A stretch of DNA of 40,819 nucleotides, taken from contig JAFUPZ010000028.1 of NCBI GenBank assembly GCA_017472545.1, positions 1 through 40,819 of the forward strand, in the 5' to 3' direction. Position 1 is the stretch's first letter, and each line of letters starts with the position of its first letter. A model generated the notes under the pieces. It did no database searches. It was given only the letters and a program-made list of their open reading frames with translations, and was not told the DNA's origin. Shown piece after piece: positions 9,676 through 35,910 of this stretch. The translations under genes and the position numbers were made by a program. Source of the stretch: a bacterium (GTDB lineage Bacteria > Cyanobacteriota > Vampirovibrionia > Gastranaerophilales > Gastranaerophilaceae).

Positions 9676-10860
9676 ATGGAAGACAGATTACAAAATTCAA
9701 TATCAACTGACCAATTGTACAAAGAGTACCATTGGTATCAAAACGTGTTCCCAAGCATCATTCAAGAATCTTATGATGAGTTTTTTAATCCTGAATTCAA
9801 GCTTGAACTTATTGGTGTTAGCAAAAATATTAACTGTCTGATTGATAATGAATCTTGTTTTGTAACTAAAGTTAGAATTGATCACGAATACGATATGTAT
9901 TTTAGATTAACAGATAAAGCAATTGCGCTAATTTTAAACAAAGCCTTAGGTGAGTCTAAAAACAAATTCAATATAAATAAAATATCAGAATTAGAAGCAA
10001 AAGTTATAACATCTTTTAACGACTTTATGTTTGGGAACATAAAAAGAGTTCTCAACCCACCCCCACAAAATGAAATCAAACGAGTTAACTTCGATTTGAT
10101 ACATTTAACATTCATAATAAAAGAAGTTGAAGAATACAACCAAAGAGCTGGAAAAGTGATAGTTACATTACCATTATCTCTATTACATCCAGAAGTTGTA
10201 ACCTCAAGTGGCGAAAAATTTAACGAAACAAATTTCCCAAACACAGACACTTACGCAAAGGTATTTGTCGGAAAAACAAAATTTTCACTATATGATTTAA
10301 AACATCTTGAAAATGGTGATGTTGTTGTGTTTGAAAACAGCGATATTGAAAAATTAACCCTAACAATCAACGGACAAGATTTAGCGGTAAGTTTAAACAC
10401 AAATATGGATTTACTAATACCTGAAGATAACGACGGAGGAGAGATTATGAGTAATACTCAGCAAAATATATGGGACAGCATTGAAGTTGAAATGTATGCT
10501 GAATTTGATGCTGTAAAAATATCCCTCGGAGAACTAAAAAATATAGAAGATGGACTTGTTGTAGATTTAACATCACTTTACGACAACAATGTAACATTAA
10601 AAGTTGAAGGAAAACCAATCGCAAGCGGTTCACTAGTAATCGTAAACGATAGATATGGTGTAAAAATAAACAACGTAATCGCAGATTCTGGTGAAGCTAC
10701 GATGCCTAGAGCAAGCAAACAAGCTGAATCAGAAGTACCTCATCAAGAAGAAAGAGTACAATACCAAGAAGAAGCACCTCAAGTTCAAGAATCATACTCA
10801 GGAAGTGACGATGAAGAATTTGATTACAGCGATTTTGAACTAGAAGACGAAAATATTTAA
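9676..10860 (+). CDS. FliY/FliM-like flagellar switch (C-ring) protein with two SpoA domains
   Basis: 394 residues. Residues ~40-180 resemble the CheC-like middle domain of FliM/FliY (VTKVRIDHEYDMYFRLTDKA, then ELEAKVITSFNDFMFG). Two SpoA (FliMN C-terminal) domains follow: residues ~190-236 (TKFSLYDLKHLENGDVVVF) and ~270-335 (VKISLGELKNIEDGLVVDL, then VNDRYGVKINNV). The tail is Glu/Gln-rich and disordered. Such proteins form the cytoplasmic ring of flagella or the sorting platform (SctQ) of type III secretion systems. It is first in an operon with fliO, fliP, fliQ and fliR, which favours the flagellar reading. Residue 258 is a Met preceded by a very strong Shine-Dalgarno, suggesting a second, shorter product. 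The symbol is left open because FliM, FliN and FliY features are mixed. Confidence 0.8.
   Translation: MEDRLQNSISTDQLYKEYHWYQNVFPSIIQESYDEFFNPEFKLELIGVSKNINCLIDNESCFVTKVRIDHEYDMYFRLTDKAIALILNKALGESKNKFNINKISELEAKVITSFNDFMFGNIKRVLNPPPQNEIKRVNFDLIHLTFIIKEVEEYNQRAGKVIVTLPLSLLHPEVVTSSGEKFNETNFPNTDTYAKVFVGKTKFSLYDLKHLENGDVVVFENSDIEKLTLTINGQDLAVSLNTNMDLLIPEDNDGGEIMSNTQQNIWDSIEVEMYAEFDAVKISLGELKNIEDGLVVDLTSLYDNNVTLKVEGKPIASGSLVIVNDRYGVKINNVIADSGEATMPRASKQAESEVPHQEERVQYQEEAPQVQESYSGSDDEEFDYSDFELEDENI
10435..10449 (+). promoter_or_regulatory. Internal ribosome binding site and ATG inside the dual-SpoA gene
   Basis: GGAGGAGAG (10435-10443) lies in frame inside the coding sequence, followed 3 nt later by ATG at 10447; GGAGG is 7 nt from the ATG. 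This is stronger than the sites in front of most genes in the window. Confidence 0.6.
10447..10860 (+). CDS. Predicted internal-start product: FliN-like SpoA2 protein
   Basis: If translation initiates at the internal ATG (residue 258 of the full protein) the product is 137 residues holding only the second SpoA domain and the acidic tail, the size and content of a FliN subunit. Separate short SpoA products from internal starts are established for SctQ proteins of type III secretion (YscQ, SpaO). No separate fliN gene is seen in this operon, so the internal product could supply that subunit. This is inferred from the ribosome binding site and domain boundary; it is nested in the longer gene. 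Confidence 0.5.
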   Translation: MSNTQQNIWDSIEVEMYAEFDAVKISLGELKNIEDGLVVDLTSLYDNNVTLKVEGKPIASGSLVIVNDRYGVKINNVIADSGEATMPRASKQAESEVPHQEERVQYQEEAPQVQESYSGSDDEEFDYSDFELEDENI

Positions 10861-10900: not shown

Positions 10901-11446
10901 ATGGGCGGATATATAGTTAATTTTACAGTATACACAATGGCAATGCTTGGCTTAATATGCTTTGCTGTATTCGTGTTTAAAAAATTTACTGACGGCACAA
11001 TGAGAAGTAGCAGTTCAAAATTTTTAAACGTAGAAGAATCTATGAGCCTTTCTCCTAGAAAAACACTACACGTCGTGCGAGCTGGAAACGAAAAATTCCT
11101 CATCGCATCAGATATTGATAGAACAACTCTAATCTCAAAACTTGAAAGCTCTAACTCTATTCAAAAAACTGAAAACTTAAATAGATTTAGAAATATTGAA
11201 CTAGAACAACCTCAACAAGTTCCAAACTTCCAAGAAGAACTTCAAATCTTACCACAACAAGTTCATCTTGAGCCAATTAAAGGACGTAATCCTGAAGCTC
11301 CAACAAGAAGAGGCTTAGACAGAAGAGTATCAAGTAATATTGAAGTAAATAAAGGTCAAAAAGTTGTAACTTTAGATTTTGACACACCAAAAAACCATGG
11401 ATTTTCAACAATGAAAGAAATGGCTATGAAAATTAACGAACTATAA
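10901..11446 (+). CDS. fliO: FliO-like flagellar export assembly protein
   Basis: 181 residues. One N-terminal transmembrane helix (TVYTMAMLGLICFAVFVFKK, ~9-28) is followed by the compact FliO cytoplasmic domain: LNVEESMSLSPRKTLHVVRA, then EKFLIASDIDRTTLISKLE, matching the family pattern of 'l.pr..l.vv..g.e..Lig...'. FliO assists assembly of the FliP pore. The remaining ~90 residues are a Gln/Glu/Pro-rich tail with no recognised domain. The position directly before fliP is the usual one. AGGGGAG upstream is ~12 nt from ATG 10901, rather far, but no better start is seen. FliO is divergent, so the call leans on context as well as on the motif. Confidence 0.78.
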   Translation: MGGYIVNFTVYTMAMLGLICFAVFVFKKFTDGTMRSSSSKFLNVEESMSLSPRKTLHVVRAGNEKFLIASDIDRTTLISKLESSNSIQKTENLNRFRNIELEQPQQVPNFQEELQILPQQVHLEPIKGRNPEAPTRRGLDRRVSSNIEVNKGQKVVTLDFDTPKNHGFSTMKEMAMKINEL

Positions 11447-11459
11447 GGACTAATATAAT

Positions 11460-12101
11460 ATGGATCAACTACAAAATCTTAATCCCGTTTTACAAATGCT
11501 GATAGTAATGTCATTATTTTCATTACTACCTTTTGTATTTTGTTGTATGACAAGTTTTTTAAGATTTGTTGTAGTTTTTGCAATGTTAAAAACAGCAATG
11601 GGTACTCAACAAGTACCTCCAGCAATCGTTATTATCGGATTATCAATGATTTTAACATTCTATACAATGGGTCCAACTTTCCAAAAAATGTATGATATGG
11701 GTTCGGTTCCTTATCAAAAAAATCAAGACATGATTGCAGCGATTCACGAAGGTTCAAAACCTTTAAAAGAATTTATGCTAAAACAAACAAGGCAATCAGA
11801 TTTGGACTTTTTCTTAGAACTTTCGCATAAAAAGCAACAAGTAACCTCCCCTGATGATATTTCAATATGGGAAGTTGCACCAGCATATATCATAAGTGAA
11901 CTAAAAACCTCATTTGAAATAAGCTTTATTATATTCGTACCATTTATCATTTTAGACTTGGTTGTAGCAAATATCCTGCTCGCTCTGGGGATGTTTATGC
12001 TGTCGCCAACGATTATTTCGATGCCGTTCAAACTCCTGATATTTATCGCTGTTGACGGATGGGCGTTAATAGTACAAGGACTTGTTTCAAGTTATAACTA
12101 A
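11460..12101 (+). CDS. fliP: Flagellar type III export gate protein FliP
   Basis: 213 residues, four membrane segments. FliP forms, with FliQ and FliR, the helical entry pore of the flagellar type III export apparatus. Diagnostic stretches are SFLRFVVVFAMLKTAMGTQQ followed by VPP, IGLSMILTFYTMGPT, and the C-terminal FVPFIILDLVVANILLALGM with SPTIISMPFKLLIFIAVDGW. GTQQxPP is closer to flagellar FliP than to the GxQQVPSN of virulence SctR. It lacks the cleaved N-terminal signal peptide of enterobacterial FliP, so it is shorter (~213 versus ~245). AAGGA lies 9 nt before ATG 11460, close behind fliO. Confidence 0.95.
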   Translation: MDQLQNLNPVLQMLIVMSLFSLLPFVFCCMTSFLRFVVVFAMLKTAMGTQQVPPAIVIIGLSMILTFYTMGPTFQKMYDMGSVPYQKNQDMIAAIHEGSKPLKEFMLKQTRQSDLDFFLELSHKKQQVTSPDDISIWEVAPAYIISELKTSFEISFIIFVPFIILDLVVANILLALGMFMLSPTIISMPFKLLIFIAVDGWALIVQGLVSSYN

Positions 12102-12116
12102 CAAAAAGGAACCTAA

Positions 12117-12605
12117 ATGGAAGCGTTACTAGAATACTTAGCAAAAGGATTTTTAATGATGTTGGCAATCTCAATGCCTTGCGTACTTGTTGCCGCAGGT
12201 ATTGGTTTGGTTGTCGGTATTTTGCAAGCTGTAACCCAAGTTCAAGAACAAACAATTGCAGCGGCTCCAAAAATCTTAGGCGTATTTTTAGTAATCATCA
12301 TTGGCGGAGTAGGCTTTATCAAATTATTAACCAATCTATTCCAAGAAGGTATGGTTTTAGCATTCCAACACGTTCCACAAAACCAAGAATTCGTGCTAGA
12401 CGCTAATTATCATAAATATACGACTCCTTTTGAGTATGAAATGAAAGATAAATTTAGAAACATCGATGAAATTGATGAGATAATGAAAAATCCAGGAAAA
12501 GTTCCATATATCGACAACTATAAACGAGAAAGATATACTCCTGCAGCAAAAACTGCAAGTCCTAGACCAAACCAAGTTGAGGCAATAAGAATACTCGGAA
12601 GATAA
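12117..12605 (+). CDS. fliQ: Flagellar export gate protein FliQ with long C-terminal extension
   Basis: 162 residues, against ~90 for typical FliQ. Residues 1-88 are a normal FliQ: two transmembrane helices (LMMLAISMPCVLVAAGIGLV and PKILGVFLVIIIGGVGFIKL) linked by the conserved VGILQAVTQVQEQTIAAAPK. Residues 89-162 are an unusual hydrophilic tail, first acidic (FRNIDEIDEIMKN) then basic and Pro-rich (TPAAKTASPRPNQ), of unknown role and presumably cytoplasmic or at the pore exterior. The frame is clean, with AAGGA 7 nt before the ATG, and fliR starts 3 nt after its stop, so the extension is not a frameshift fusion with fliR. Confidence 0.93.
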   Translation: MEALLEYLAKGFLMMLAISMPCVLVAAGIGLVVGILQAVTQVQEQTIAAAPKILGVFLVIIIGGVGFIKLLTNLFQEGMVLAFQHVPQNQEFVLDANYHKYTTPFEYEMKDKFRNIDEIDEIMKNPGKVPYIDNYKRERYTPAAKTASPRPNQVEAIRILGR

Positions 12606-12608
12606 TAA

Positions 12609-13391
12609 ATGAATGAATTCTTTGTAGCACTAATGCAAATGTTCCCTAAAATAAACACCTACCTGATGGCAGGTGCATTAGTATTTGCAAGAATGATAGG
12701 TTTTTTCAGATTCTGTCCAATTTTTAACAGAAAAGATATTCCACCACTAGTAAAAGTTCCGTTTGCTCTTATCGTAACGGTTTTTATCGTTCCGTTTTTA
12801 TCACCTGAAAAATGTTTAACAGAATGTGATTCATTTGTTTTATCACTATTATTAAATATTGTAGTAGGTGCAATGATAGGCTATATGGCACAATTAATAA
12901 CCATTGCAATTGATTGTGGAGCAGAAATGATAAACATGCAAATGGGTTTGTCTTCTGCTACAGCATTAGATCCTACAACATCTTCGCAAGTATCAATACT
13001 TACAAAAATGATTTCACTTATGGGAATCTTGATATTTATCCACTTGGGTGGGATTTATTGGCTATTCAAAGCTTTAATAAGGAGTTTTGAAATATTTCCA
13101 ATGTATGCATCAGCCGTACCGTTAGCACAACTTATAAAAATGGATATGCTAATTAAAATGTCTTCAAACACATTATATATGGGACTCCAAATCGCCTCCC
13201 CTATTCTTTTGGCAACATTAGCCCAAGACATTATTTTGGGGGTTATCTCAAGAACAGCACCTCAAGTTAACGTATTCCAATTAAGCTTCTTATTTAAACC
13301 AGTTCTTGGTGCTGCAATTATGATTTGGATTTTACCAATGCTAATGAACGTAATTGAAGAATACTTCATGAGTTTTGCCAATATAATTTAG
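12609..13391 (+). CDS. fliR: Flagellar type III export gate protein FliR
   Basis: 260 residues with about six hydrophobic segments, normal for FliR, the single-copy subunit that closes the FliP5Q4R1 export pore. Recognisable stretches are AGALVFARMIGFFRFCPIFN, PFALIVTVFIVPFL, the conserved GAMIGYMAQLITIAIDCGAE then INMQMGLSSATALDPTTSSQ, and ISRTAPQVNVFQLSFLFKPV near the end. It begins 3 nt after the fliQ stop, so the two are translationally coupled. flhB and flhA, the other membrane export genes, are not in the window; a terminator ends the operon right after fliR. Confidence 0.94.
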   Translation: MNEFFVALMQMFPKINTYLMAGALVFARMIGFFRFCPIFNRKDIPPLVKVPFALIVTVFIVPFLSPEKCLTECDSFVLSLLLNIVVGAMIGYMAQLITIAIDCGAEMINMQMGLSSATALDPTTSSQVSILTKMISLMGILIFIHLGGIYWLFKALIRSFEIFPMYASAVPLAQLIKMDMLIKMSSNTLYMGLQIASPILLATLAQDIILGVISRTAPQVNVFQLSFLFKPVLGAAIMIWILPMLMNVIEEYFMSFANII

Positions 13392-20761: not shown

Positions 20762-22906
20762 CTAATTTGAGAATAGAGCAAATGTTTTTTCAATACTTTT
20801 TGAAATTAGGTTTTTAACTGTGTCATATTCAGTTGAAAGTGAAGAAATTTCAGCATCTAATTTCTTAGTTTTTAAGTCGATTGAATCTTCTTTATAAGTT
20901 AATTCTGCTTTTTTAGATGAAAATTCAGCTTCAGCTCTTTCTATAGCGTCAGTATCAGAAACTTCGACCATATAACCTGTTTCATTGTATCTAGTTTGAT
21001 AATAATAACCATCTTGGTTCAATGAACTCATTGAATAACGTCCATCTTTCAATGCTGCTTCTAAATATTCATAATCATCAATTGCTGCATCTTCTCTCCA
21101 GCCATACTCTAAAATATTATTGTAAAGTTGATCAAAGAAGTCTGCAGATTTTGCTTCCATATCAGTAACAGCATCTTCTTCTGCTTGACCGATGTATACA
21201 TAGCTTAAGTTATCAGTAACATAAATAGTTGAGTCAACACCCTTACCAACAACATAATCTGAATTTGCACCTGATAGAGCATTTTCATAATATGTCAAGA
21301 ATGAGCGTAACATATTAGTCAAACTAACACCATAATATTCCGCACCATCAGTCATATAACCTACACGGTTATAATTTTCAGCATTTAGATATGCGCTGTT
21401 ATCAACCATTGATTTGTTATTTGTTCTAGAGCCTGTTCCGACAGCATCGTTCAAACTCAAGAAAGTTTTCTTGACCATATTATAAGCAAATGACAAAGCT
21501 GAAGAAGAAGCATCATCAACGTTCAATCCTTGACCTGACAAATCTTTAGTTTCAGAATAACCAAATATTGCAACCATTGAATCTAATAATTTAGTAACGT
21601 TTGAAACAAATGTTTCTAATCTTTCTTCAGAACTTGTACCAGCTAGATTGTTATTTGCCATCAACACAATATTACCAGTTAAAATATCTCCAATAGTCAT
21701 TTCTTGAAGTTCCGCCTGATAATGGTTAATAACACCGTTTTGAACAACTGAATAAGTAGAAGTAATTTGTGTAGTTCCATCATCATCAAGCTGATTAGTA
21801 CCTTTTAATGAGTTAACAGAAGTATTAAACTCACCTTGAATACTTTCAACATTTATTGTAGATTTTAAAGCTTTATGAGCATCCAAATCTGCTTGAAGCT
21901 GAGCTTTTATTGCTTCAAAAGCCGCATCTTGAGTAACTGGCTGTTTATTATGATCTAAAATTGGATTATTAGTAGCTGGATTAATTAACACAGTCTCTAA
22001 TTTATCATCACCATCAATATCTCTTTGATCTACATCATAAATATGTTGAGCTTGGTCAACCAATGACTCTAAACGAAGAGTTTCAGGATCAGCAAGAGGA
22101 TTTACAACACTATTCTTTTGGTTTCTATAATCAGCTTTTAACTGGTTAACAACATCATCGTCAACTTTTTTAGTGCCAAAACCTGAAACTTTTGATAATA
22201 AATCATTTAACCTTTCTTCTTCTCTAGAATATTCAAGAGAAGTTATTTGGTTTTCACCATCAAGAAGAATTTTTGCCCAGTCAACAAGCTGCTTACCCAT
22301 TGTTTCACTTAAACATAAATCTTCAAGCGTCATTGCATTTACAGAAGATTTATCTAAAGGTTCAGAACCCATACCTGCTGCAGGATTCCAAGAAATAGAA
22401 CTTATTGAAGGATTTTCAACATCATTAAATTCAAGTTTTCCAGTTACAGCATCTTTACCAGAAACTTCATAATCATATACAGTAATAGCCTTAGCTGTTT
22501 CTTCGGTAACAATACCACCATAAGCTAATGCTGATATAAATTTATCTCTTGAAACTTGAGAACCAACACCACCAGCTTTTGAAATACCTGCAGCTTTAGC
22601 CGCTGCAGCATACTCAGAATTCAATACGATTGCGCCTGATGGAGATGTTACCATATATGGGTTATAATCATTTGCTGCTGAAGGCATCATCAACAAACTA
22701 TAAGTTAACCCAAAATCATTTTCTACTGCTTCATTTGACCAAATCAATTTAGTAGCATTCATTGCTTGAGCATACTGAGTCGAAATATCACTAATTTGTT
22801 TTGTGATATCAAGCTTCTGCTGAGCAAGTTCTGTTGATCTGTATTCACAGTCAGCCTTTCTTGCTGTTATACATAAAAATCTAGCTTGTGAAGCTGCCAA
22901 TCCCAT
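20762..22906 (-). CDS. MGLAASQAR-type large helical protein, candidate flagellar/type III-secreted axial protein
   Basis: 714 residues with no signal peptide. The N-terminus (MGLAASQARFLCITARKADC) resembles the D0 helix of flagellar rod/hook-family proteins, which carry a similar 'gl.asq..l..ta.nian' pattern. It continues as a helix (ELAQQKLDITKQISDIS). The C-terminus is a coiled coil (IDLKTKKLDAEISSLSTEYD then ISKSIEKTFALF), again like axial proteins whose two ends pair. The middle, ~60-650, is acidic and Asn/Ser/Thr-rich, as in secreted structural domains; no enzyme motif was seen. A near-consensus sigma-28 promoter precedes it, which fits a late flagellar gene. I recall related N-termini in several proteins of this lineage, but no function. 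The assignment is inference. Confidence 0.6.
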   Translation of the reverse strand: MGLAASQARFLCITARKADCEYRSTELAQQKLDITKQISDISTQYAQAMNATKLIWSNEAVENDFGLTYSLLMMPSAANDYNPYMVTSPSGAIVLNSEYAAAAKAAGISKAGGVGSQVSRDKFISALAYGGIVTEETAKAITVYDYEVSGKDAVTGKLEFNDVENPSISSISWNPAAGMGSEPLDKSSVNAMTLEDLCLSETMGKQLVDWAKILLDGENQITSLEYSREEERLNDLLSKVSGFGTKKVDDDVVNQLKADYRNQKNSVVNPLADPETLRLESLVDQAQHIYDVDQRDIDGDDKLETVLINPATNNPILDHNKQPVTQDAAFEAIKAQLQADLDAHKALKSTINVESIQGEFNTSVNSLKGTNQLDDDGTTQITSTYSVVQNGVINHYQAELQEMTIGDILTGNIVLMANNNLAGTSSEERLETFVSNVTKLLDSMVAIFGYSETKDLSGQGLNVDDASSSALSFAYNMVKKTFLSLNDAVGTGSRTNNKSMVDNSAYLNAENYNRVGYMTDGAEYYGVSLTNMLRSFLTYYENALSGANSDYVVGKGVDSTIYVTDNLSYVYIGQAEEDAVTDMEAKSADFFDQLYNNILEYGWREDAAIDDYEYLEAALKDGRYSMSSLNQDGYYYQTRYNETGYMVEVSDTDAIERAEAEFSSKKAELTYKEDSIDLKTKKLDAEISSLSTEYDTVKNLISKSIEKTFALFSN

Positions 22907-22953
22907 TGTTTTCGTAATCCTTTCGACATGTGGTCATTTTTCGCTTAATCATG

Positions 22954-22980
22954 ATTACGGCATTTTTTCGCTAAACTTTA
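22954..22980 (-). promoter_or_regulatory. Sigma-28 (FliA)-type promoter
   Basis: Minus strand: TAAAGTTT (22973-22980), exactly 11 nt, GCCGTAAT (22954-22961). The enterobacterial FliA consensus is TAAAGTTT-N11-GCCGATAA, so the -35 is perfect and the -10 matches GCCG then differs. Transcription would start near 22946, giving a ~40-nt leader with AAAGGA before ATG 22906. A 12-bp palindrome (22946-22957) overlaps the -10 and the predicted start point. Confidence 0.65.
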
Positions 22981-23017
22981 AGATTTTAGCTCTCGTTTGT
23001 AACATTTCGTTACATAA

Positions 23018-25175: not shown

Positions 25176-25228
25176 GTTTCATTTTGTTCTCCTTTACTTC
25201 ATTTCAACATTAGACAGTCATAGATTTT
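25176..25228. repeat. Direct repeat copy A flanking the effector cassette
   Basis: 53 bp, identical at 47 positions to copy B at 26541-26593; all six differences are transitions. Read on the minus strand, copy A encodes the end of the small membrane gene (YDCLMLK, stop) followed by AAAGGAG and a start MKQK, i.e. a relic of a gene junction. Confidence 0.8.
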
Positions 25229-26126
25229 AATCTTTTTCAATAAAAACATGATTACCGTTAATGGTTACCCATCGACCATCTTGAGGATTTGCTGAATTAA
25301 TACGTTGTGATTTTTCTTTCTCATAAGTTTTTATATTACTAGGCAAATCTTTTTCATACGGAATCCCAATAGAATTAAGTTGAGCCGTTATTTCCTTTTC
25401 ATATCTCGTATATTCATCACCTCTCATTTTGCCAATATCTTCACGAGTAAAAATTCTATCCTTACCACTTTCAGGATTTTTATATGAGCCATAATCAAAT
25501 TTTGGAGGTTGATTAGTAATTAACCCTTTTCTAACCTGTTCCATTATTATTGATTCATTTTGAGCAAATTCCTCTTTTGTCATTTTGCCTATTTCTTCTG
25601 GTGTAAAAATTTTTTGGTATTGGTTTTGAGGTTGAACTATTGGCGCGGCAAAACCAGTTGACCGACCTTGTTGAAACTTTTTGCACTCATTTGGATTTGT
25701 AATCAATTTACCATCTTTCATTCTCTGCATTACTTTTTGTACTATAAGCTTATTTAAGTTTTCTGAAGGTACGATAGCCCCAACCCCATACTCTCGAATA
25801 ATCTCTTTTGCAATTTCTCTACCTTGAGCATTGTTCCAATTATCCATATAAAATTCCCCAGAAGTTTGTCCCATTTTTAAATTACCATCACGCTCATGCC
25901 AATCACCAACAAACTTTGCAGCATGTCTACCAAATAACAATGATAAATGAGCTTGCATGAATACATGTTTAAATGCATCCGCCTCATTATTCCAAGTAGC
26001 ATGTTCTCCACGCCCAATATCAAACCCATATTGTTTCTGATACTTTAAAGTTTCATCAAACATCCAACTACTGTACTTTTTAGCTGGATAATTAAAGATA
26101 TTAACATTACTTCTTTTTTGTTTCAT
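25227..26126 (-). CDS. Effector-like phage cargo protein with two virion-tag-like repeats
   Basis: 299 residues from ATG 26126 (AAGGAG upstream; an 18-codon longer frame lacks a ribosome site). Residues ~46-105 contain EADAFKHVFMQAH, GDWHERDG and MDNWNNAQGRE; from memory this D-H...H-E...D-N-N-GR pattern resembles domains at the ends of some secreted polymorphic toxins. Then come two copies of a helical motif: 172-205 (IFTPEEIGKMTKEEFAQNES...) and 224-257 (IFTREDIGKMRGDEYTRYEK...). The same motif ends the scaffold-like phage protein at 31954. The C-terminus RWVTINGNHVFIEKD resembles endings of phage minor head (MuF-like) proteins. I infer a virion-loaded effector; activity is unproven. It is last in the phage operon. 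Confidence 0.6.
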   Translation of the reverse strand: MKQKRSNVNIFNYPAKKYSSWMFDETLKYQKQYGFDIGRGEHATWNNEADAFKHVFMQAHLSLLFGRHAAKFVGDWHERDGNLKMGQTSGEFYMDNWNNAQGREIAKEIIREYGVGAIVPSENLNKLIVQKVMQRMKDGKLITNPNECKKFQQGRSTGFAAPIVQPQNQYQKIFTPEEIGKMTKEEFAQNESIIMEQVRKGLITNQPPKFDYGSYKNPESGKDRIFTREDIGKMRGDEYTRYEKEITAQLNSIGIPYEKDLPSNIKTYEKEKSQRINSANPQDGRWVTINGNHVFIEKD

Positions 26127-26155
26127 TTTAAATCTCCTTATGTTATTAATGTTGT

Positions 26156-26515
26156 ATGAAAATTTACAAATATATTTCACTAAATTTATTTTCGTTAATT
26201 TCTTATTTTTTTATATTTCTTTTTCTGTATTGTTTAATACAAAATCGAATTGTTATACAACATCCAATCCTATATTTAACACTTGAAAAATCGATAGAAC
26301 TATATGCACTCTTAATCTACACATTACTACTAACTGTAAGCATTTTTTTCGTCGAAACATATATCAGAAAAACAAATCCTAAAAAATTATTCAATATTCA
26401 TTTTAAAAATAAATTCAAAAAATACCTACACTTGGCATTTTTTCATTTAGGCTTTTTAGTTGGTTGTCTTAATTTATTTGCATATATTTTCTTTTTAATT
26501 GTTTCGACATTATAA
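26156..26515 (+). CDS. Small polytopic membrane protein divergent from the effector-like gene
   Basis: 119 residues, very AT-rich. Three to four hydrophobic segments (e.g. SYFFIFLFLYCLIQN, YALLIYTLLLTVSIFFVE, LHLAFFHLGFLVGCLNLFAY) with a basic loop (RKTNPKKLFN). No family recognised. It is the only plus-strand gene in the phage module, begins 29 bp from the start of the effector-like gene, and lies with it between two 53-bp direct repeats. A role as an immunity or superinfection-exclusion protein is conceivable but rests on position alone. No Shine-Dalgarno is seen. Confidence 0.6.
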   Translation: MKIYKYISLNLFSLISYFFIFLFLYCLIQNRIVIQHPILYLTLEKSIELYALLIYTLLLTVSIFFVETYIRKTNPKKLFNIHFKNKFKKYLHLAFFHLGFLVGCLNLFAYIFFLIVSTL

Positions 26516-26540
26516 ATAAAAACATAATCTATCTATTTCG

Positions 26541-26593
26541 GTTTCATTTTATTCTCCTTTGCTTCACTTCAATATTAGACAGTCATAAATCTT
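26541..26593. repeat. Direct repeat copy B flanking the effector cassette
   Basis: Partner of copy A (47 of 53 identical). On the minus strand it covers the end of the small membrane gene (YDCLILK, stop), AAAGGAG and a start ATG whose frame closes after four codons (MKPK), as if the following gene had been cut away. Confidence 0.8.
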
Positions 26594-26791
26594 GTCTATC
26601 TTATCTTTCATTTCACTAATTTGGCTTTTTAAATCTTCACAACTATCAATTGTTGCGAATCGACACTCAACCTCTTTTATAATTTCTCGATGTTTTTTCT
26701 CCAATTGCTCAGGTGTGACAACAATCCTTTCGTGAATTAAAAACATCAGCACTACTACAATCACAGGCGCATAATAAATAATATTATCCAT
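26564..26791 (-). CDS. Small phage membrane protein with coiled coil (holin/spanin-like candidate)
   Basis: 75 residues from ATG 26791 (GGAAGGAAAAG upstream; the longer frame to 26818 overlaps the terminase). One N-terminal transmembrane helix (YYAPVIVVVLMFLIHERIVV) is followed by a charged amphipathic helix (EQLEKKHREIIKEVE, then LKSQISEMKDKIDKIYDCL). This topology is found in holin-like and Rz-like lysis proteins, but no family motif is visible. It follows the large terminase with an intact frame. Its 3' end is duplicated in direct repeat A. Confidence 0.6.
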   Translation of the reverse strand: MDNIIYYAPVIVVVLMFLIHERIVVTPEQLEKKHREIIKEVECRFATIDSCEDLKSQISEMKDKIDKIYDCLILK

Positions 26792-26807
26792 AACTTTTCC
26801 TTCCTTT

Positions 26808-28097
26808 CTAAAGCACAATCGGCCAATAAAAATCTACCAAATATGATGCAGCATCAAACGGATGAGACAAAAACTTTAACTCTTTTGTTTGTTTTATCTG
26901 TGTATATGTAGGAATATCAATTTTGGATGTACCTTCTATATAACGTAAGTTATATATGTTATAAAGTAACTTTTCACATCTTGGAGATATATACAAACTC
27001 ACTTCTCCATCGGCATTCCTAACTTTTGCATTAAATGCTGCCACTCTATTTTTTATCGGAGGATTAAATCCCTTGATTTTTATTTCAACATCAAACCCAT
27101 AAGACTCTAATTTCTTTTTAATAATGACATAATTTGTATATTCACTTGTACAACTACGATTATCTCCTGAAGCATCACCATTTATAATGATTTTACCTTT
27201 ATGGTTAGGGTATCTGTTATAAAATTCTTCGCAAGTTTTTGCAGTCGTAGTGTTCTCTAGCACCAACTCATCAAAATAAAAAACTTTATCTTCGGTCTTA
27301 TGAGCCAGAACCCAAGCCATTGGATCAACGTTAAAGTCACAACTTATATGAACATCCAAATCCGCTTGATATTGAATATCGCGAACATTTTCATCCGTAA
27401 AATCTTTTACCACAAGATTTGTACTATAATCCCCAGCTTTACCCAATACAAAAATCTCATAATAACTCTTGTCATAAAGCTTTTTCAACTCTTCACAAAA
27501 CCCCTCAGGAAGATATTTATTCTGAGTGGTTGGCGCACAAATCAAACGATAATTCAATGGAGGATTATCATAAAAAGTTTTATATATCCACCCTTTTTGA
27601 ACTTCAGGATTTGTATGTCCAAAAATTCTATAAGTAAAATTATGCCAACAAGCACGCTTTCGCTGACGCATTCTAGCTAAAAGCATTTTGAACGTATCAT
27701 AAGGAACATCTGACATTTCTTCGATTTCTACAAACCCCAGATTTAATGATTTTAATTTATTTGGTTCATCAAAATGTCGAAATAAGATTTCTGACCCATT
27801 TTTGAAAACAAGTTTTTGCTCAGCGCTAACCCACTTGTAATCAACTTTATCGACAAAACCAATATTATCCAGATGCTCAAAATAAGTTTTTAAAGTTGTG
27901 TCACGCACAAGAGTGTAAGTTTGAGCACCCACAAGCCCAATTATTCCAGGAAACTTCAAAGCTAATAGAATTCCCAGCAAGGCTCCGGCAAATGTTTTAC
28001 CGGAGCCATAGCCGCCTTGGTATACTGCAACGTCCAAGGAATAATCGTGTGGAATCTCTAAAAACTTTCTCTGTGCGTCTAATAGTTTGTATTTCAT
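26808..28097 (-). CDS. Phage terminase large subunit
   Basis: 429 residues. The DNA-packaging motor cuts and pumps phage DNA into proheads. Visible are Walker A GGYGSGKT (28-35), Walker B LGFVEIEEMSDVPYDTF, the coupling motif region FGHTNPE, and nuclease acidic sites DFNVDPMAW, NGDASGDNRS and the C-terminal DAASYLVDFYW. This is a complete two-domain (ATPase plus RNase H-like nuclease) terminase of the PBSX/Terminase_3 type with normal length, so the motor looks intact. GAGGTG precedes the ATG. It directly follows the portal gene. Confidence 0.95.
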   Translation of the reverse strand: MKYKLLDAQRKFLEIPHDYSLDVAVYQGGYGSGKTFAGALLGILLALKFPGIIGLVGAQTYTLVRDTTLKTYFEHLDNIGFVDKVDYKWVSAEQKLVFKNGSEILFRHFDEPNKLKSLNLGFVEIEEMSDVPYDTFKMLLARMRQRKRACWHNFTYRIFGHTNPEVQKGWIYKTFYDNPPLNYRLICAPTTQNKYLPEGFCEELKKLYDKSYYEIFVLGKAGDYSTNLVVKDFTDENVRDIQYQADLDVHISCDFNVDPMAWVLAHKTEDKVFYFDELVLENTTTAKTCEEFYNRYPNHKGKIIINGDASGDNRSCTSEYTNYVIIKKKLESYGFDVEIKIKGFNPPIKNRVAAFNAKVRNADGEVSLYISPRCEKLLYNIYNLRYIEGTSKIDIPTYTQIKQTKELKFLSHPFDAASYLVDFYWPIVL

Positions 28098-28126
28098 ATA
28101 GACACCTCGAAAATTATAATTAAATA

Positions 28127-29779
28127 CTATTCTTCAATTTTATTTTCAGTTAGAAAATTATTTGCATTCTCAACACCGTACTGCTCCATTACAAACTTGA
28201 AGCATTCAAGCCAATCTATGCGATTTTTCACTACATCAATTTGCAAGAATGATTGAACAACCTCAAAAAGTTCTTTCATTCGAACTTTTCGTTCAAAAGA
28301 AGCTTTTCTATCGCCATAACGATAGATATAATCCGCATTTCGAACCTTGTCATCAACTTCCACAAGAAAAACTTTTCCTCTATCGTTTGCTAATACAGAT
28401 TCTTTACCTAATCTAAAGTTAGAAATAATTTCGGCTGTTTTTTCGACCATTGGAATAATTACTTTTCTATTTATAGATTCTAAAATCATATTCAATCGAG
28501 CTTCTTGCCCACCAACAGAATAATTCAATTCGGTAGCCGTACGCTCAGAACTTTGAAGATTTCCTGCCATATTTTTGAATATACCTGTCGCACTTTCTAT
28601 TGTCGATTTAAAATAATTCAGAAATTCCCAACCTTGCATTGCTTTATCAAAAGAAATAGGGGTCGGAGGAGTCGTCATTAAAGATGCATCATATTCAACA
28701 ATCTTGCCTGGACGAACATCCTGCTCCCCTTTAAAGCAACCTTTTGGGGCTAAATAAGGAGGATTCATCATCAATGCTAGTGCATCTAATTGTTTATTTA
28801 AAATAGTTGAAGATATATTATTTAAAATTAGGGCAACCCTTAATGGAGAAATTCCGCGTCCAGTTGTTGGACATTCAATAATATTAGCGTGAATAAATGG
28901 ATTAATGACAAACGGATTGTCCTCAAACCTAATTAAAACACAACGACCAGCAACAACTATCAATTTATTTTTTAAAATTTCACCATTTGAAAGCTCTATA
29001 TCTCCCCAATACTCAAGTAATTCCACTTTTCTTTCATAGGTACTCATTTTGTTCTTTTTAGAATTTTTTGCCACCACTCCTTTTAACATTTCCAACTTTT
29101 CAATATCCAACAAATTATTTGACTTGTTCTGAACTATCTCATCTATAGTTTGATAAGTTCTATAAATTTTTGCACAAGAATCCCAATTCCCAGCTTCTGT
29201 TCTGTCAAAAACAAAATCCTCATAATTAATAAACTTAACTTTCGCGTTATCGTACACAATCTTATCTTCAACGACAAAAGTTTCATCCGAATTTTTATTG
29301 AGCTGTTCTTTTAGAGAAATTGCACGTCTTGTTTTTCTTGTCTTGGTTTCCCAGCCAATAAATAAAGTAACTTCTCCTGTTTCTACAACAGAATCAATAA
29401 TTTTTTCCATTTCATCTTCAATTTTCATTGATTCAAATGTCGAAACTAACATTGCTTTTTGCTTATTAGCAAATTTTTGAGTCTCAAAATCTTTACCTTC
29501 AACATCAAACATCCCATCAGGATGAGAATACAAATTTTGCACAAGATGTGATTTTAAAGTTTGTGCTAACTCATAAATATCAGGTAATTGAATATTGCAA
29601 TCCCAAGCATTAACCTTCGGAATATCCGCATCATATATTGCATACTTAACTAACCTGTTATCTGTTAACTGAGAAGATCTTGCATCTTCGTAGTAATCGT
29701 ATTTTTTTATAATGTTGCCAAGCAGATACTGCTGTTCAACGTTATCCAAAAAATTTTTATCTAAATTTTCGCTAATCAT
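28127..29779 (-). CDS. Phage portal protein (podovirus type)
   Basis: 550 residues. The dodecameric ring at one capsid vertex passes DNA and binds terminase and the tail adaptor. The sequence has no catalytic motif. Assignment rests on size, position next to the large terminase and typical stretches: DYYEDARSSQ near the N-terminus, VVETGEVTLFIGWETKTRK, ALILNNISSTILNKQLDALA, MMNPPYLAPKG followed by VRPGKIVEYD, and SSERTATELNYSVGGQEARL before a C-terminal helical region. Such features are shared by P22-like and other podoviral portals. GAGGTT precedes ATG 29779. Confidence 0.87.
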   Translation of the reverse strand: MISENLDKNFLDNVEQQYLLGNIIKKYDYYEDARSSQLTDNRLVKYAIYDADIPKVNAWDCNIQLPDIYELAQTLKSHLVQNLYSHPDGMFDVEGKDFETQKFANKQKAMLVSTFESMKIEDEMEKIIDSVVETGEVTLFIGWETKTRKTRRAISLKEQLNKNSDETFVVEDKIVYDNAKVKFINYEDFVFDRTEAGNWDSCAKIYRTYQTIDEIVQNKSNNLLDIEKLEMLKGVVAKNSKKNKMSTYERKVELLEYWGDIELSNGEILKNKLIVVAGRCVLIRFEDNPFVINPFIHANIIECPTTGRGISPLRVALILNNISSTILNKQLDALALMMNPPYLAPKGCFKGEQDVRPGKIVEYDASLMTTPPTPISFDKAMQGWEFLNYFKSTIESATGIFKNMAGNLQSSERTATELNYSVGGQEARLNMILESINRKVIIPMVEKTAEIISNFRLGKESVLANDRGKVFLVEVDDKVRNADYIYRYGDRKASFERKVRMKELFEVVQSFLQIDVVKNRIDWLECFKFVMEQYGVENANNFLTENKIEE

Positions 29780-29786
29780 AATAACC

Positions 29787-30305
29787 TCATTTTTTGTAAT
29801 AGTAACTTCTATATATTGAGTAAACCTCTATATCTTGAGCCTTTCCGGCTCTTAAAGTTTCATTTTTCAAAGTGGCCTCATACTCAAATCCACAATCTTT
29901 TAAAAAATTTCGAACCCTGAAATTATCAGGATATATTTGAGCTTTTAGCTTTTGAAAACCAAATTCATCAAAGCATTTCTTCAAAAAAAACTTTGCACTA
30001 TATCGAGTAAAATTACCCCAAGCCTTTTTATCAAAACATGTTGTTATTTCTGCACTGTATAATTGAGTTTCATCGCCGACAAAATTATCCAGAAACACAA
30101 ACCCCATAAAATTTTCCTCATAATCCAAAATGAGCCAAAAGGAGGTGTTTATAATGACATTTGTTATATTTACGTGATTTGACTTGGCAAAATCATCTTG
30201 AATATATTTGGAATATTTATGCCAACACTTTTCAACTAAAGGGATATAGTGCAAATTTGAAGAACATTCTAAGGTAAATAATGATAGGTTTCTAAACTTA
30301 CACAT
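29787..30305 (-). CDS. GNAT-family acetyltransferase encoded in the phage module
   Basis: 172 residues. The GNAT fold is indicated by SFWLILDYEENFMGFVFLDN (strands 3-4), ITTCFDKKAWGNFTRYSAKF before helix 3, and the closing LKAQIYPDNFRVRNFLKDCG with FEYEATLKNETLRAG, the classic N-x-x-S/R...F...GF motif. The acetyl-CoA loop (Q/RxxGxG/A) is weak: KAWGNFTRYSAKFF. Similar small acetyltransferases occur between structural genes of other small phages; the target, protein or small molecule, is unknown. The start ATG sits one base after the stop of the preceding gene, implying coupled translation. Confidence 0.82.
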   Translation of the reverse strand: MCKFRNLSLFTLECSSNLHYIPLVEKCWHKYSKYIQDDFAKSNHVNITNVIINTSFWLILDYEENFMGFVFLDNFVGDETQLYSAEITTCFDKKAWGNFTRYSAKFFLKKCFDEFGFQKLKAQIYPDNFRVRNFLKDCGFEYEATLKNETLRAGKAQDIEVYSIYRSYYYKK

Positions 30306-30306
30306 T

Positions 30307-30657
30307 TTATACTTTTACTTTGACAAATTTAACAAATATATTTCCAGAAACAAAAGAATCTATGGTACCTGCTAAAAGCTTTTCTCTTTCGGCAGTTTTA
30401 TTACCCAAAAACCCTTCAGCTTGAACTCCGTTTATATAAGATTTTGTCTTACTGATTTTATTAATTACTTCATACGTCGCAAATTTTGTAAAAATTCTAT
30501 CCTTAGGTGCGGAAGAAATTTCTGTAATATAACCAGATTTTTCGGATTTTGATTTATCCAATTCTTGAACAAAATCCTGCTCTACTTTTGCTCTGATAAT
30601 TTCGTCATAAGACGCATCATTGAGTAATATTTTTTCAATATCTTTATTTTTATTCAT
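30307..30657 (-). CDS. Phage protein of unknown function
   Basis: 116 residues, unrecognised. The N-terminal half is charged and helical (KDIEKILLNDASYDEIIRAK). The C-terminal half is beta-rich (YITEISSAPKDRIFTKFATY, then SFVSGNIFVKFVKVKV). No membrane segment or cysteines. AAAGGTG precedes ATG 30657. It lies between the small terminase and GNAT genes, with translational coupling to the latter, so a packaging or head-completion role is possible but unsupported by motif. Confidence 0.7.
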   Translation of the reverse strand: MNKNKDIEKILLNDASYDEIIRAKVEQDFVQELDKSKSEKSGYITEISSAPKDRIFTKFATYEVINKISKTKSYINGVQAEGFLGNKTAEREKLLAGTIDSFVSGNIFVKFVKVKV

Positions 30658-30676
30658 AGGTTACACCTTTCATAAA

Positions 30677-31111
30677 TTAAATTTTTTCATCATCTAAGTT
30701 TGCAATGGTAATAATCTTAGCCTCATGATGCTCACCTTCAATTTGCTGCGAAGAAAATCCTAAATACTTACACAAAGATTCCAACGCTTTCAAACCTGCA
30801 GATGAATCGCGAAGCTTACGCTTTCCTGTAGAGTTGCCATCCTTATCCAAAATCTCCTCTTGCTCTAATGAAAATTCTGCAATTTGAAGGAGTTTTTGAA
30901 TGACATAACCTTTTTGGACGCTTAAAGACTCTATTTGAAGCTTTAATTGAGCTTTTATTTCTTGAACGACATAGTCTTTTTCCAATAAAGTAGATGCAAA
31001 AGATTTCAAATCCTTGCATTTATAACCAGCTTTTTTGGCGGCTTGCTCACCGTCAAGTGTCTTGATATACTCCGTTACAAACTTTTTTTGCTGTTGTGTT
31101 ACTTGTTTCAT
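30677..31111 (-). CDS. Phage terminase small subunit
   Basis: 144 residues of the Terminase_2 type. The N-terminal DNA-binding HTH is visible as TQQQKKFVTEYIKTLDGEQA then AKKAGYKCKDLKSFASTLLE, followed by oligomerisation helices (YVIQKLLQIAEFSLEQEEIL, then GLKALESLCKYLGF). The subunit recognises the packaging site and loads the large subunit. Here it is separated from the large terminase by three genes, an unusual order. The ribosome site is modest (AAAGAG). The 128-bp gap upstream carries a promoter and hairpin on the opposite strand. Confidence 0.88.
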   Translation of the reverse strand: MKQVTQQQKKFVTEYIKTLDGEQAAKKAGYKCKDLKSFASTLLEKDYVVQEIKAQLKLQIESLSVQKGYVIQKLLQIAEFSLEQEEILDKDGNSTGKRKLRDSSAGLKALESLCKYLGFSSQQIEGEHHEAKIITIANLDDEKI

Positions 31112-31134
31112 CTCTTTACATTTCTTATCATAAT

Positions 31135-31163
31135 TTGTATTTTTCGCGAATAACTTGTATAAT
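31135..31163 (+). promoter_or_regulatory. Strong plus-strand promoter inside the phage operon
   Basis: TTGTAT (31135-31140), exactly 17 nt, TATAAT (31158-31163). It points against the direction of the surrounding phage genes. Confidence 0.55.
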
Positions 31164-31169
31164 GAACAT

Positions 31170-31235
31170 GCTATTTATATTTCGGCTAGTGTAAATCTTA
31201 ACAGGGGGGAATGAAAAGGACTTCCTGTTTTTTTT
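31170..31235 (+). ncRNA. Candidate small RNA opposite to the phage operon
   Basis: From the expected start ~31170 the transcript would run ~65 nt to a 6-bp stem (AACAGG 31200-31205, CCTGTT 31224-31229) followed by eight T (31228-31235). No protein-coding frame of more than ten codons is present. It ends five bases before the 3' end of the gp4-like gene and would be antisense to the leader of the small-terminase message's upstream transcript. The stem is short, so termination is uncertain. Confidence 0.4.
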
Positions 31236-31239
31236 GCCT

Positions 31240-31878
31240 TTAATTCCGAAACATCTTGACTACAGGCGCATTTTGAACAGATGCGGCAGTCTTAGATTTG
31301 AGGTTTGCAAGAGCTTCTTTATACATGCTCATCCAATATGGAAACTTAAAATATTGAGGGTTTGCTTTCAATCTCAAGCATGTGCCGTAAACCAATAACT
31401 GCTCCACAAATGGCATTGGTATCATTGAAACATCATCAGCTTTTTCAAAATCAACTTTTTCCATGCCTGCATCATCCACTACACAATTTTTTGTAAAATA
31501 AATAACATCTAAAAGTTTATCCTCATTAAATTTTGGGAATAGTAATCTATCAGCAAATGAACTATATGTCCCAGACTTAGGATTTCCCTCCATAAAGGAT
31601 TCCACATCGTCGGTAAAGTCATATCTTTTACCATCAATAAACAAATACAAAATTCGTCCAGAAATCTCATTTTCAATTTCTGTGACACCTGCGGGCAACA
31701 AAATTCCTGTCCTTCTTAGTAAAAAATTCCAGTTTTCTATTGCACATAATTCTTTATTGATAGTGTTAAGAATTCCAATAATACGCTTGTGATCATTTTT
31801 AATAAGCTCAGAAAACGTATTAACCTGTTTATAATTTAATTCGAGTAAACATTTATTTATAAGTTGTAAATAATTCAT
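31240..31878 (-). CDS. Head-tail adaptor (P22 gp4-like tail accessory factor)
   Basis: 212 residues. Helical N-terminus (YLQLINKCLLELNYKQVNTF), a central beta part (RILYLFIDGKRYDFTDD) and a C-terminal helical bundle (MPFVEQLLVYGTCLRLKANP then WMSMYKEALANLKSKTAA). This arrangement is that of podoviral adaptors which dock under the portal ring. No catalytic motif. AAAAAGGAG precedes the ATG. A terminator-like hairpin just upstream may lower its expression relative to the coat and scaffold-like genes. Confidence 0.7.
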   Translation of the reverse strand: MNYLQLINKCLLELNYKQVNTFSELIKNDHKRIIGILNTINKELCAIENWNFLLRRTGILLPAGVTEIENEISGRILYLFIDGKRYDFTDDVESFMEGNPKSGTYSSFADRLLFPKFNEDKLLDVIYFTKNCVVDDAGMEKVDFEKADDVSMIPMPFVEQLLVYGTCLRLKANPQYFKFPYWMSMYKEALANLKSKTAASVQNAPVVKMFRN

Positions 31879-31892
31879 ATTTTCTCCTTTTT

Positions 31893-31935
31893 GAAAAAGC
31901 CCGAACGGGAAGTCAGCATTCTCGCCCGAGCTTTC
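31893..31935 (-). terminator. Intrinsic terminator between scaffold-like and adaptor genes
   Basis: On the minus strand a ~16-bp stem with several G-U pairs (arms about 31919-31935 and 31895-31912, GC-rich for this genome) is followed by TTTTT. It lies inside the operon, so it probably attenuates rather than ends transcription. Confidence 0.6.
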
Positions 31936-31953
31936 ACTTCTGAAATTGCAAAA

Positions 31954-32622
31954 CTACTTAATTAATCCTTGTTTAACTTGTTCCATGATTAATTTCTCAT
32001 TTTTAGCAAATTCCTCACCACTCATTTTGCCGATGTCCTCACGAGTAAATACCTTATTCATTTTTGTGTCAGAAGGAGTATTTTGAGCATAAGCTGTCAA
32101 CTTACTCTTTGCACGTGCGTTCTCGTCATTCAATGATTTCTCGTAAGCAGTCTTTTTCAAATAACCATCAACCGCTGAGTTTTCCAGACCTTCAACGAGC
32201 TGAGCTATTCGAAGGATTTCATCTTTGTCCATGTCAAATCCTTTGATATAATTCAATACATCACCACGCCCCTCAGCCTCAAAAAAGCCTGGACGTTCTT
32301 GATTGAACAAATCCATAGGATTTTGAGTTTGTGCTGTAGGTGCTTGAACATTTTGCAAAGGTGTTTGAGAATGAATTTGCGCATTTTTATACGCATTGAG
32401 TAACTGAACTTTCTGAGATAACTGTGCCAACAGATATTGCCCTTGTTGTTGTGATAATAACCCTTGCGCAACTAGATTTTTGACGTTTTGAACATCATTT
32501 CCAATTACTTGTTCTAAGTGATAATAAACATCTTTATATCCAATATTTGGATTTGCCTGAGGATTTACGGCAGGCAATGAAATCCCATTTTGAGGTGGCA
32601 TTGCACCAATTTGATTTTGCAT
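31954..32622 (-). CDS. Scaffold-like phage protein with C-terminal tag motif
   Basis: 222 residues, Gln/Asn/Pro-rich N-terminus (GAMPPQNGISLPAVNPQANP), a central helical part (QVIGNDVQNVKNLVAQGLLS then QQGQYLLAQLSQKVQLLNAY) and another helix (EILRIAQLVEGLENSAVDGY). The last ~34 residues are KVFTREDIGKMSGEEFAKNE followed by KLIMEQVKQGLIK, closely matching two repeats in the effector-like protein at 25227. Location next to the coat gene, low complexity and a short basic C-terminal helical element all resemble phage scaffolding proteins, whose C-terminus binds coat. It may instead be an internal virion protein. AAAGGAG precedes the ATG. Confidence 0.65.
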   Translation of the reverse strand: MQNQIGAMPPQNGISLPAVNPQANPNIGYKDVYYHLEQVIGNDVQNVKNLVAQGLLSQQQGQYLLAQLSQKVQLLNAYKNAQIHSQTPLQNVQAPTAQTQNPMDLFNQERPGFFEAEGRGDVLNYIKGFDMDKDEILRIAQLVEGLENSAVDGYLKKTAYEKSLNDENARAKSKLTAYAQNTPSDTKMNKVFTREDIGKMSGEEFAKNEKLIMEQVKQGLIK

Positions 32623-32626
32623 ATAA

Positions 32627-32875
32627 CTATTCTCCTTTTATTTCTGGCAATGAATTCATGTAATCTACAGAAATTTCAACAACATCATCAATGAAACTAG
32701 ATAGCAAAATTGATAAAATTGTTTTAACTATTGGAGCAAAAGGTAATCTATTCACAATATAATTGATAGCAAGTTGTTTCTTTTCTTGCCCTTTACCAGA
32801 TCCCAACTCAGCTTCTGCAAAAATTACAGCTTTTTTTGCCAATTCTTTAATTTTATTTTTTACATTCGAAAACAT
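32627..32875 (-). CDS. Small phage helical protein
   Basis: 82 residues. N-terminal basic/amphipathic helix (NVKNKIKELAKKAVIFAEAE), LGSGKGQEKKQLAINYIVNR, then a hydrophobic segment (FAPIVKTILSILLSSFIDDV). The AEAELGSGKGQEKK stretch is reminiscent of LLH-type holins, but the hydrophobic segment is in a different place. Its role could be lysis or virion-associated; no firm family. It starts with GGAG upstream, 11 bases after the coat terminator's T run, and ends 4 bases before the scaffold-like ATG. Confidence 0.6.
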   Translation of the reverse strand: MFSNVKNKIKELAKKAVIFAEAELGSGKGQEKKQLAINYIVNRLPFAPIVKTILSILLSSFIDDVVEISVDYMNSLPEIKGE

Positions 32876-32886
32876 ACTTATCTCCT

Positions 32887-32946
32887 AAAAAAAATGTACT
32901 CCCACGAAAAATAAGTAAGGGTAGAAGAAGTTCGAAGGAGTACATT
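32887..32946 (-). terminator. Intrinsic terminator after the coat gene
   Basis: Minus strand: perfect 10-bp arms AATGTACTCC/GGAGTACATT (32937-32946 and 32893-32902) with a 34-nt loop, followed by eight T (32887-32894). It lies between coat and downstream structural genes, consistent with high coat expression and attenuated readthrough. Confidence 0.7.
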
Positions 32947-32957
32947 CACCCCAAAAA

Positions 32958-33812
32958 CTATGCTGCAGAAACAATCATTTTAGCCAAAGCTTTTGGTTGT
33001 ACTGTTTTAGCACCGTACAAATATAAGCCTCTAACTAAATCTGAGAAACTATCTTTATCTCTTAAGCTTTCAATTTTTGCTAATTGAGAAGCAAAAGTAA
33101 TAGCATCATTTGTACCTGCTAAAACATAATACTTGCCATCAACTTCTGTTAAATTTGTACTTACTAAAACATCCATCCCAGCAATTCTACCGATTGAACC
33201 TTCACGTAATGTTTCATCTGCAACATTGTATGCTGAAATAAATTCAGGACTTTGTAATAGATAAGCTTCAACATTAGGATTGATTACAACCCAAGGTTTT
33301 ACACCAGAGTGAACTGCATCTGAATTTTTCAAAGCTAGAGATAATTTTACAAATTGTTCATAGATAGTTGTTTTATCTAAAGCAATAGGAGATTCTTCAG
33401 TACCAACAGTATTATCTTCGGTTACATCAGTATGTAATGACAATAAATAAGAATCTTGAACTTCTTCAATAGCCTTTTTAGCATTACCCAAATGAGCTTC
33501 CATAATATCGCCATTTGATTGAACTTGAGCAACATCATCAATCTTGAAAGCAAAGAATTTTTTCTGATCAATAACCAAATCTTGAGAAGTCGGTGTAAGT
33601 GCTGCATATTCAATATTATCAGAAGTTAAAGTTGAAACTGTAACATCTGCTGGAGTAATAATTTTTACAGTATCACCCTGATTTTTAATTTCACCTTCCC
33701 AATTTCTGTTTACACATTGAAGCATTACACAGTTTTTGTCCAACATATTGCTTAATTTTTGGCTCCACAATTGTGGAATAAAAGCTGAATAACTAGATTG
33801 TAATTCTGACAT
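32958..33812 (-). CDS. Major capsid (coat) protein
   Basis: 284 residues. The opening SAFIPQLWSQKLSNMLDKNC, the strand pair GEIKNQGDTVKIITPADVTV, IDQKKFFAFKIDDVAQVQSN and the C-terminal ADETLREGSIGRIAGMDVLV with YYVLAGTNDAITFASQLAKI, SLRDKDSFSDLVRGLYLYGA match HK97-fold coat proteins of podoviral and related phages. There is no N-terminal prohead-protease-like delta domain of obvious kind, which agrees with a separate scaffold. AAAGGA lies upstream of ATG 33812. A terminator directly follows. Confidence 0.88.
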   Translation of the reverse strand: MSELQSSYSAFIPQLWSQKLSNMLDKNCVMLQCVNRNWEGEIKNQGDTVKIITPADVTVSTLTSDNIEYAALTPTSQDLVIDQKKFFAFKIDDVAQVQSNGDIMEAHLGNAKKAIEEVQDSYLLSLHTDVTEDNTVGTEESPIALDKTTIYEQFVKLSLALKNSDAVHSGVKPWVVINPNVEAYLLQSPEFISAYNVADETLREGSIGRIAGMDVLVSTNLTEVDGKYYVLAGTNDAITFASQLAKIESLRDKDSFSDLVRGLYLYGAKTVQPKALAKMIVSAA

Positions 33813-33879
33813 TTTCTGATCCTTTCATTTTCATAACTAAATACACAATATTTATTTTGAGTGGTGATTTTTAAATTAT

Positions 33880-35400: not shown

Positions 35401-35403
35401 AAT

Positions 35404-35901: not shown

Positions 35902-35910
35902 ATACACACC

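Follow-up and report, generated by a model that had tools for sequence, protein, structure and literature searches.

A long MGLAASQAR-family protein under a sigma-28 promoter as a probable substrate of a hookless flagellar-type exporter in Gastranaerophilaceae

We analysed a stretch of 40,819 nucleotides (hereafter the window) of contig JAFUPZ010000028.1, assembly GCA_017472545.1. It comes from a member of Candidatus Gastranaerophilales, which are Melainabacteria, that is, non-photosynthetic cyanobacteria, of animal guts. The subject of the analysis is an open reading frame on the minus strand (20762..22906, ATG start), whose product of 714 residues begins with MGLAASQARFLCITARKADCE and belongs to the long type of what we call the MGLAASQAR family. 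The gene lies behind a conserved sigma-28 promoter in a genome that has a FliA-type sigma factor and part of a flagellar gene set. We consider its product to be probably, with a probability of roughly 0.6, a substrate of a flagellar-type exporter that lacks hook, filament and motor.

The promoter, TAAAGTTT-AGCGAAAAAAT-GCCGTAAT, is located at 22954-22980 on the minus strand. Its -35 element TAAAGTTT (22973..22980) and -10 element GCCGTAAT (22954..22961) are separated by an 11-bp spacer, and 47 bp lie between the -10 element and the ATG. The E. coli sigma-28 consensus is GCCGATAA. An earlier, sequence-only reading of the window had recognised this promoter at approximately 45 bp before the gene and is borne out. 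The pattern TAAAGTTT-N11-GCCGTAA, at 22955-22980, matches nowhere else in the window, and 100 shuffles gave an expectation of 0. The motif was found within 110 bp upstream of 63 of the 72 long-form orthologues from other genomes, compared to 0.06 in dinucleotide shuffles, and before none of approximately 423 unrelated genes in the orthologue loci. Six background matches in these loci turned out to be members of the MGLAASQAR family whose start codon is a variant or lies further upstream. The consensus of the orthologues is T[A/C]AAG[T/A]TT (present in 65 of 72), a spacer of 11 or 12 and [G/A]CCGTAA, with a median of 74 bp to the ATG. The sequence-only reading had regarded missing conservation before orthologues as fatal to its proposal; the motif is conserved.

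Within the window's own genome (1.51 Mb in 148 contigs, 82% complete), TAAAGTTTN10-12GCCG occurs 15 times, compared to 0 for the reversed pattern. A slightly altered pattern and its control gave 16 versus 1, 22 versus 1, 11 versus 2 and 10 versus 3 copies in the four genomes of the genus. The motif precedes all five MGLAASQAR family genes of this genome that have upstream sequence, the question put by the genome scan proposed earlier, at 70-74 bp from the ATG where measured; one family gene, the fifth, is cut by a contig end. Control of the 714-residue gene by sigma-28 is strongly supported. Just 5' of the -35 element lies TGTAACGAAATGTTACA, a TGTAAC-N4-TGTTACA element (22998..23014, minus strand). 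TGTTACA or TGTAACA is present in 43 of 72 orthologue upstream regions compared to 26 of 429 for other genes, and the element is possibly an additional activator site. A ribosome binding site, GAAAGG (22919..22924, minus strand), is situated about 12 bases 5' of the ATG, with GAAAGG-like sites in the orthologues.

The sigma factor itself is encoded on another contig of the same genome (G000:C5:17375-18037) and scores 240.5 bits, above the cut-off of TIGR02479 (FliA_WhiG), so that the search for fliA suggested by the sequence-only reading had a positive outcome. This model, which spans FliA and WhiG jointly, matched in all 97 genomes of the family and exceeded its cut-off in 93. We then considered the genes behind the motif in two flagellated relatives, G024 and G086. 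None of the 40 sites read there precedes flagellin. The genes that do follow include six MGMSASQAR-type paralogues and EF-hand-like proteins, and an HD-GYP protein and an 89-residue helical protein lie behind the motif in these relatives and in the window's genome alike. The strict motif was found before 0 of 23 flagellin genes of flagellated relatives, and a looser TAAAGT-N-TCGATA before three. The expectation that the motif would also mark flagellin genes was not borne out. Since the motif genes of G024 and G086 and the 23 flagellin genes show no overlap, the FliA regulon here appears to be one other than flagellin. A FliA in a non-flagellated cell with such a regulon is surprising and directly testable. 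The EF-hand-like motif genes of the flagellated relatives (L342, L348, L356, L361, L367) encode 420-650 residues with EF-hand-like motifs near the N-terminus. One product exceeds the Pfam EF-hand cut-off and others come near it, no signal peptide is evident in the N-termini read, and these proteins are possibly further substrates of the exporter.

The export gate that the sequence-only reading had placed at 10.9-13.4 kb is encoded there on the plus strand, as FliO (10901..11446), FliP (11460..12101), FliQ (12117..12605) and FliR (12609..13391). Before it stands a C-ring protein with SPOA (FliMN_C) domains (9676..10860, plus strand), for which the best PDB matches are a FliM-FliN fusion and FliN. 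FlgB and FlgC are present elsewhere in the same genome. Flagellin_N (PF00669) was found in 0 of 4 genomes of the genus and is absent from 55 of 97 genomes of the family. Most genomes with flagellin encode 7-9 Flg_bbr_C proteins, some of them of FlgG, FlgE and FlgK length; nearly all flagellin-less genomes have 0-4, of about 150-165 residues among the matches listed. According to a closer survey of 15 genomes, the flagellin-less ones carry FlgB (about 115-131 residues), FlgC (about 148 residues) and a 238-residue FlgF/G-like protein in one cluster. No protein of hook (FlgE) or FlgK length was above cut-off in the flagellin-less genomes of the genus and eight further ones, and FliG_C and MotB_plug were above their cut-offs in 3 of 3 flagellated and 0 of 12 flagellin-less genomes. 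In a relative, G073, the rod cluster encodes two proteins of FlgF/G-like type, and another cluster encodes FliE, FliF, a 339-residue protein, FliH and FlhA. The 339-residue protein is of unknown family, and its gene stands where fliG would be expected, with fliF on one side and fliH on the other (L198 7294-8313; L203 1836-2837).

A tree of FlhA separates two clades with support 100/100. One is restricted to flagellated genomes. The other occurs in every genome that yielded a full-length FlhA, flagellated or not, so that flagellated relatives have both; FlhA is split across two contigs in the window's genome and fragmentary in G045. The two clades, together with the absences of rotor, stator, hook and filament, suggest a separate flagellar-type system and not mere decay of a swimming flagellum. 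The partial flagellum of the host may thus be a secretion machine. The ordinary flagellum that the sequence-only reading had presumed does not agree with a genus without flagellin, nor with flagellin-less genomes in which FlgE/FlgK-length proteins, FliG_C and MotB are missing above cut-off. Because these parts are missing and the motif does not stand before flagellin, we do not regard the 714-residue protein as an extra part of a swimming flagellum but as probably the substrate of a separate exporter. Flagellated and non-flagellated members alike also have a soluble paralogue of FlhA, about 495 residues long, which consists only of the C-terminal (chaperone/substrate docking) half (L205 8398-9870, G000:C109).

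Partial flagellar sets of this group have been read as loss. Di Rienzi et al. (PMC3787301) noted that MEL.A1 has no filament, cap, junction or L/P rings, which they took as a sign of ongoing genome reduction, and Soo et al. (PMC4040986) inferred that functional flagella were lost. The flagellum would then be gone, with FliA, the gate and the MGLAASQAR genes as decaying leftovers of its regulon. Decay would scatter these genes, but conservation is seen: the machine genes are kept across genera, the promoters are conserved, the family is in every Gastranaerophilaceae genome sampled, and the FlhA of this set forms its own clade that also stands beside canonical FlhA in flagellated relatives. We consider a remnant regulon highly improbable.

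The MGLAASQAR family was found in 174 of 386 genomes, including every Gastranaerophilaceae genome sampled. Outside the Gastranaerophilaceae, three further genomes of the order and one of the class have it, and the remaining cyanobacteria sampled in the survey do not. This distribution confines it to the lineage, in agreement with the lineage-specific component proposed from the sequence. Several paralogues exist per genome. When the long form was defined by a best E below 1e-25, the 97 genomes were divided into 38 with the long form only, 42 with flagellin only, 17 with neither and 0 with both. By genus the corresponding numbers are 13, 20, 8 and 0 (Fisher p = 1.6e-5), values that are suggestive only, because genera are related.

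Both termini of the family are conserved, while the middle differs in length and sequence. The two nearest paralogue segments of the window's genome align only to residues 1-146 (51%) and 526-711 (42%) of the 714-residue protein. Scans of this protein against Pfam, NCBIfam and PHROGs gave zero family matches. A sequence profile search of the PDB gave nothing beyond a designed helical bundle and STP22 (E 0.05-0.15). No signal peptide or membrane segment was found in it, the Kyte-Doolittle maximum mean being 1.07 for a 19-residue window, which confirms what had been claimed for the signal peptide. AlphaFold models of the 714-residue protein (predicted local distance difference test, pLDDT, 87.7; predicted template modelling score, pTM, 0.69) and of a 516-residue orthologue (pLDDT 88.7, pTM 0.62) concur in a predicted fold of a helix at 2-49, a globular middle that varies in the family and a last helix of about 62 residues. 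The terminal helices of the former, 2-49 and 652-713, are modelled with confidence, the second corresponding to the C-terminal coiled coil noted before. In VIA alignments both terminal helices superpose together on antiparallel coiled coils in the two models, which answers positively the earlier question of whether they pair. Structural matches to flagellin in these alignments have Z 7.7-9.1 over 97-111 residues with a root-mean-square deviation of 1.7-3.0, and FliD-type cap complexes reach Z of about 7-9. The terminal helices are predicted to pair as they do in flagellin, but generic coiled coils score as high or higher, and such pairing is no proof of homology. Foldseek searches of PDB and BFVD had nothing at E below 0.001, with the best row, a cyanophage pre-ejectosome, not significant at E 0.31.

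Kinship by sequence was rejected for both candidate groups. For flagellin there is no Pfam match, and hhalign to Gastranaerophilales flagellins gave a probability of 0.1%. For the rod and hook proteins (FlgBCEFG; Flg_bb_rod/Flg_bbr_C) there is again no Pfam match, with an hhalign probability of 0.2% to FlgG/FlgF. Profile comparison thus does not show the likeness to rod/hook D0 helices that had been claimed from the sequence for the N-terminal helix.

Alternatively, the protein could stay in the cell, as a cytoplasmic or membrane-associated protein such as a scaffold or assembly factor that shares only the FliA control. The sigma-28 regulon does include HD-GYP proteins, which are expected to be cytoplasmic. 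A membrane segment is absent, however, there are several paralogues per genome, and the layout is that of flagellin, with conserved ends and a fast-evolving middle of variable length (516-850 residues in all). We regard this explanation as unlikely.

Under the exporter reading, FliA would switch on the 714-residue gene as a late-class gene. The product would pass in an unfolded state through FliPQR/FlhA and through a short rod made up of FlgB, FlgC and FlgF/G-like proteins. Once outside the cell it would fold so that its terminal helices form an antiparallel coiled coil, with the fast-evolving middle exposed, and it might assemble into a filament or surface structure. Polymerisation as such is possible, at somewhat less than even odds. 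Several points weigh against this reading. The protein has zero sequence homology to known substrates of the flagellum or of type III secretion systems (T3SS), and generic coiled coils such as MukB and Smc5/6 reach Z 11, above flagellin cores (Z of about 8-9 over 97-108 residues). The exclusion of the long form and flagellin takes no account of phylogeny and could stem from a small number of events. In a wider and more tentative proposal, which we think rather more probably wrong than right, the group has a second ancient machine without hook, filament, rotor and stator that is switched by FliA. Where the swimming flagellum was lost or never existed, the long MGLAASQAR protein, an unrelated analogue of flagellin, would be the main late substrate of this machine and would build a non-rotating surface filament or coat that faces the gut.

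Compared to flagellin (FliC) under FliA, the 714-residue protein is similar in its sigma-28 promoter, its missing signal peptide and its variable middle, and its model is similar in conserved helical ends predicted to pair antiparallel. It differs in having neither Flagellin_N nor profile homology, and in that the long form is present only where flagellin is absent. The machine has FliE, FliF, FliH, FlhA, FliOPQR, the SPOA protein, FlgB, FlgC, FlgF/G-like rods and FliA in common with the bacterial flagellum, whereas the flagellin-less genomes lack FlgE, FlgK, flagellin, FliG_C and MotB above cut-off. Non-flagellar T3SS (NF-T3SS) are defined by absence of FliE, FlgB and FlgC, and their 'Myxo' type has neither needle nor outer-membrane channel (Abby and Rocha 2012, PMC3459982). 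The 'Myxo' type resembles this machine as a flagellum-derived export core without filament. Unlike NF-T3SS, the machine retains FliE, FlgB, FlgC and a sigma-28 regulon; since FlgB and FlgC are in the window's genome and FliE in the relative G073, it is not an NF-T3SS by that definition. The T3SS tip/filament proteins IpaD and SipD have a similar helical coiled-coil layout and match weakly in structure (Z 3.7-5.5), but no sequence relation to the 714-residue protein was found (Foldseek E >7). Our literature search found no description of a second flagellar system in this group, of its sigma-28 regulon or of the MGLAASQAR family. If the exporter reading is true, the partial flagellar gene sets of a common gut order, so far read as a loss of motility, would be a conserved machine for secretion that has its own sigma factor and a family of flagellin-shaped proteins as cargo. 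Such a machine would represent a route from flagellum to secretion system distinct from that of injectisomes, and would point to candidate secreted or surface proteins for host contact of non-photosynthetic cyanobacteria.

Upstream of the MGLAASQAR gene, also on the minus strand, lies a compact podophage-like cluster (25227-35907) of an endolysin, a virion protein, an N4-gp56-type capsid, a small terminase, a portal and TerL. The same order is seen in many loci among L065-L140, and the cluster has the appearance of a prophage that Gastranaerophilales have domesticated, or of a candidate gene transfer agent of this order. TerL is found in 43 of 78 MGLAASQAR loci from many genera, at 75-94% identity compared to 34-62% for the MGLAASQAR protein. 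Because of this synteny, we considered whether the protein is part of this cluster, with its capsid, portal and terminase, and has a role in DNA transfer or in the release of particles. The TerL homologue of those 43 loci is encoded upstream of the gene and on the same strand, and in many of them only a 76-residue open reading frame lies between. The motif is nevertheless on the MGLAASQAR gene only and not on the phage genes, paralogues elsewhere in the genome share the promoter without phage genes, and no PHROGs family matches. Moreover, only 7 viral contigs encode an MGLAASQAR protein, those examined with TerL have the domesticated type (77-88% identity), and in the window's genus the gene order is broken by CNNM and a 198-residue gene. 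A phage role is therefore very unlikely in our view. The 76-residue protein (L128 5653-5883, with equivalents in 32 loci) combines a coiled coil with a single membrane helix at its N-terminus. In most genera its gene, which may be a holin-like lysis gene, is flanked by TerL and the sigma-28 promoter.
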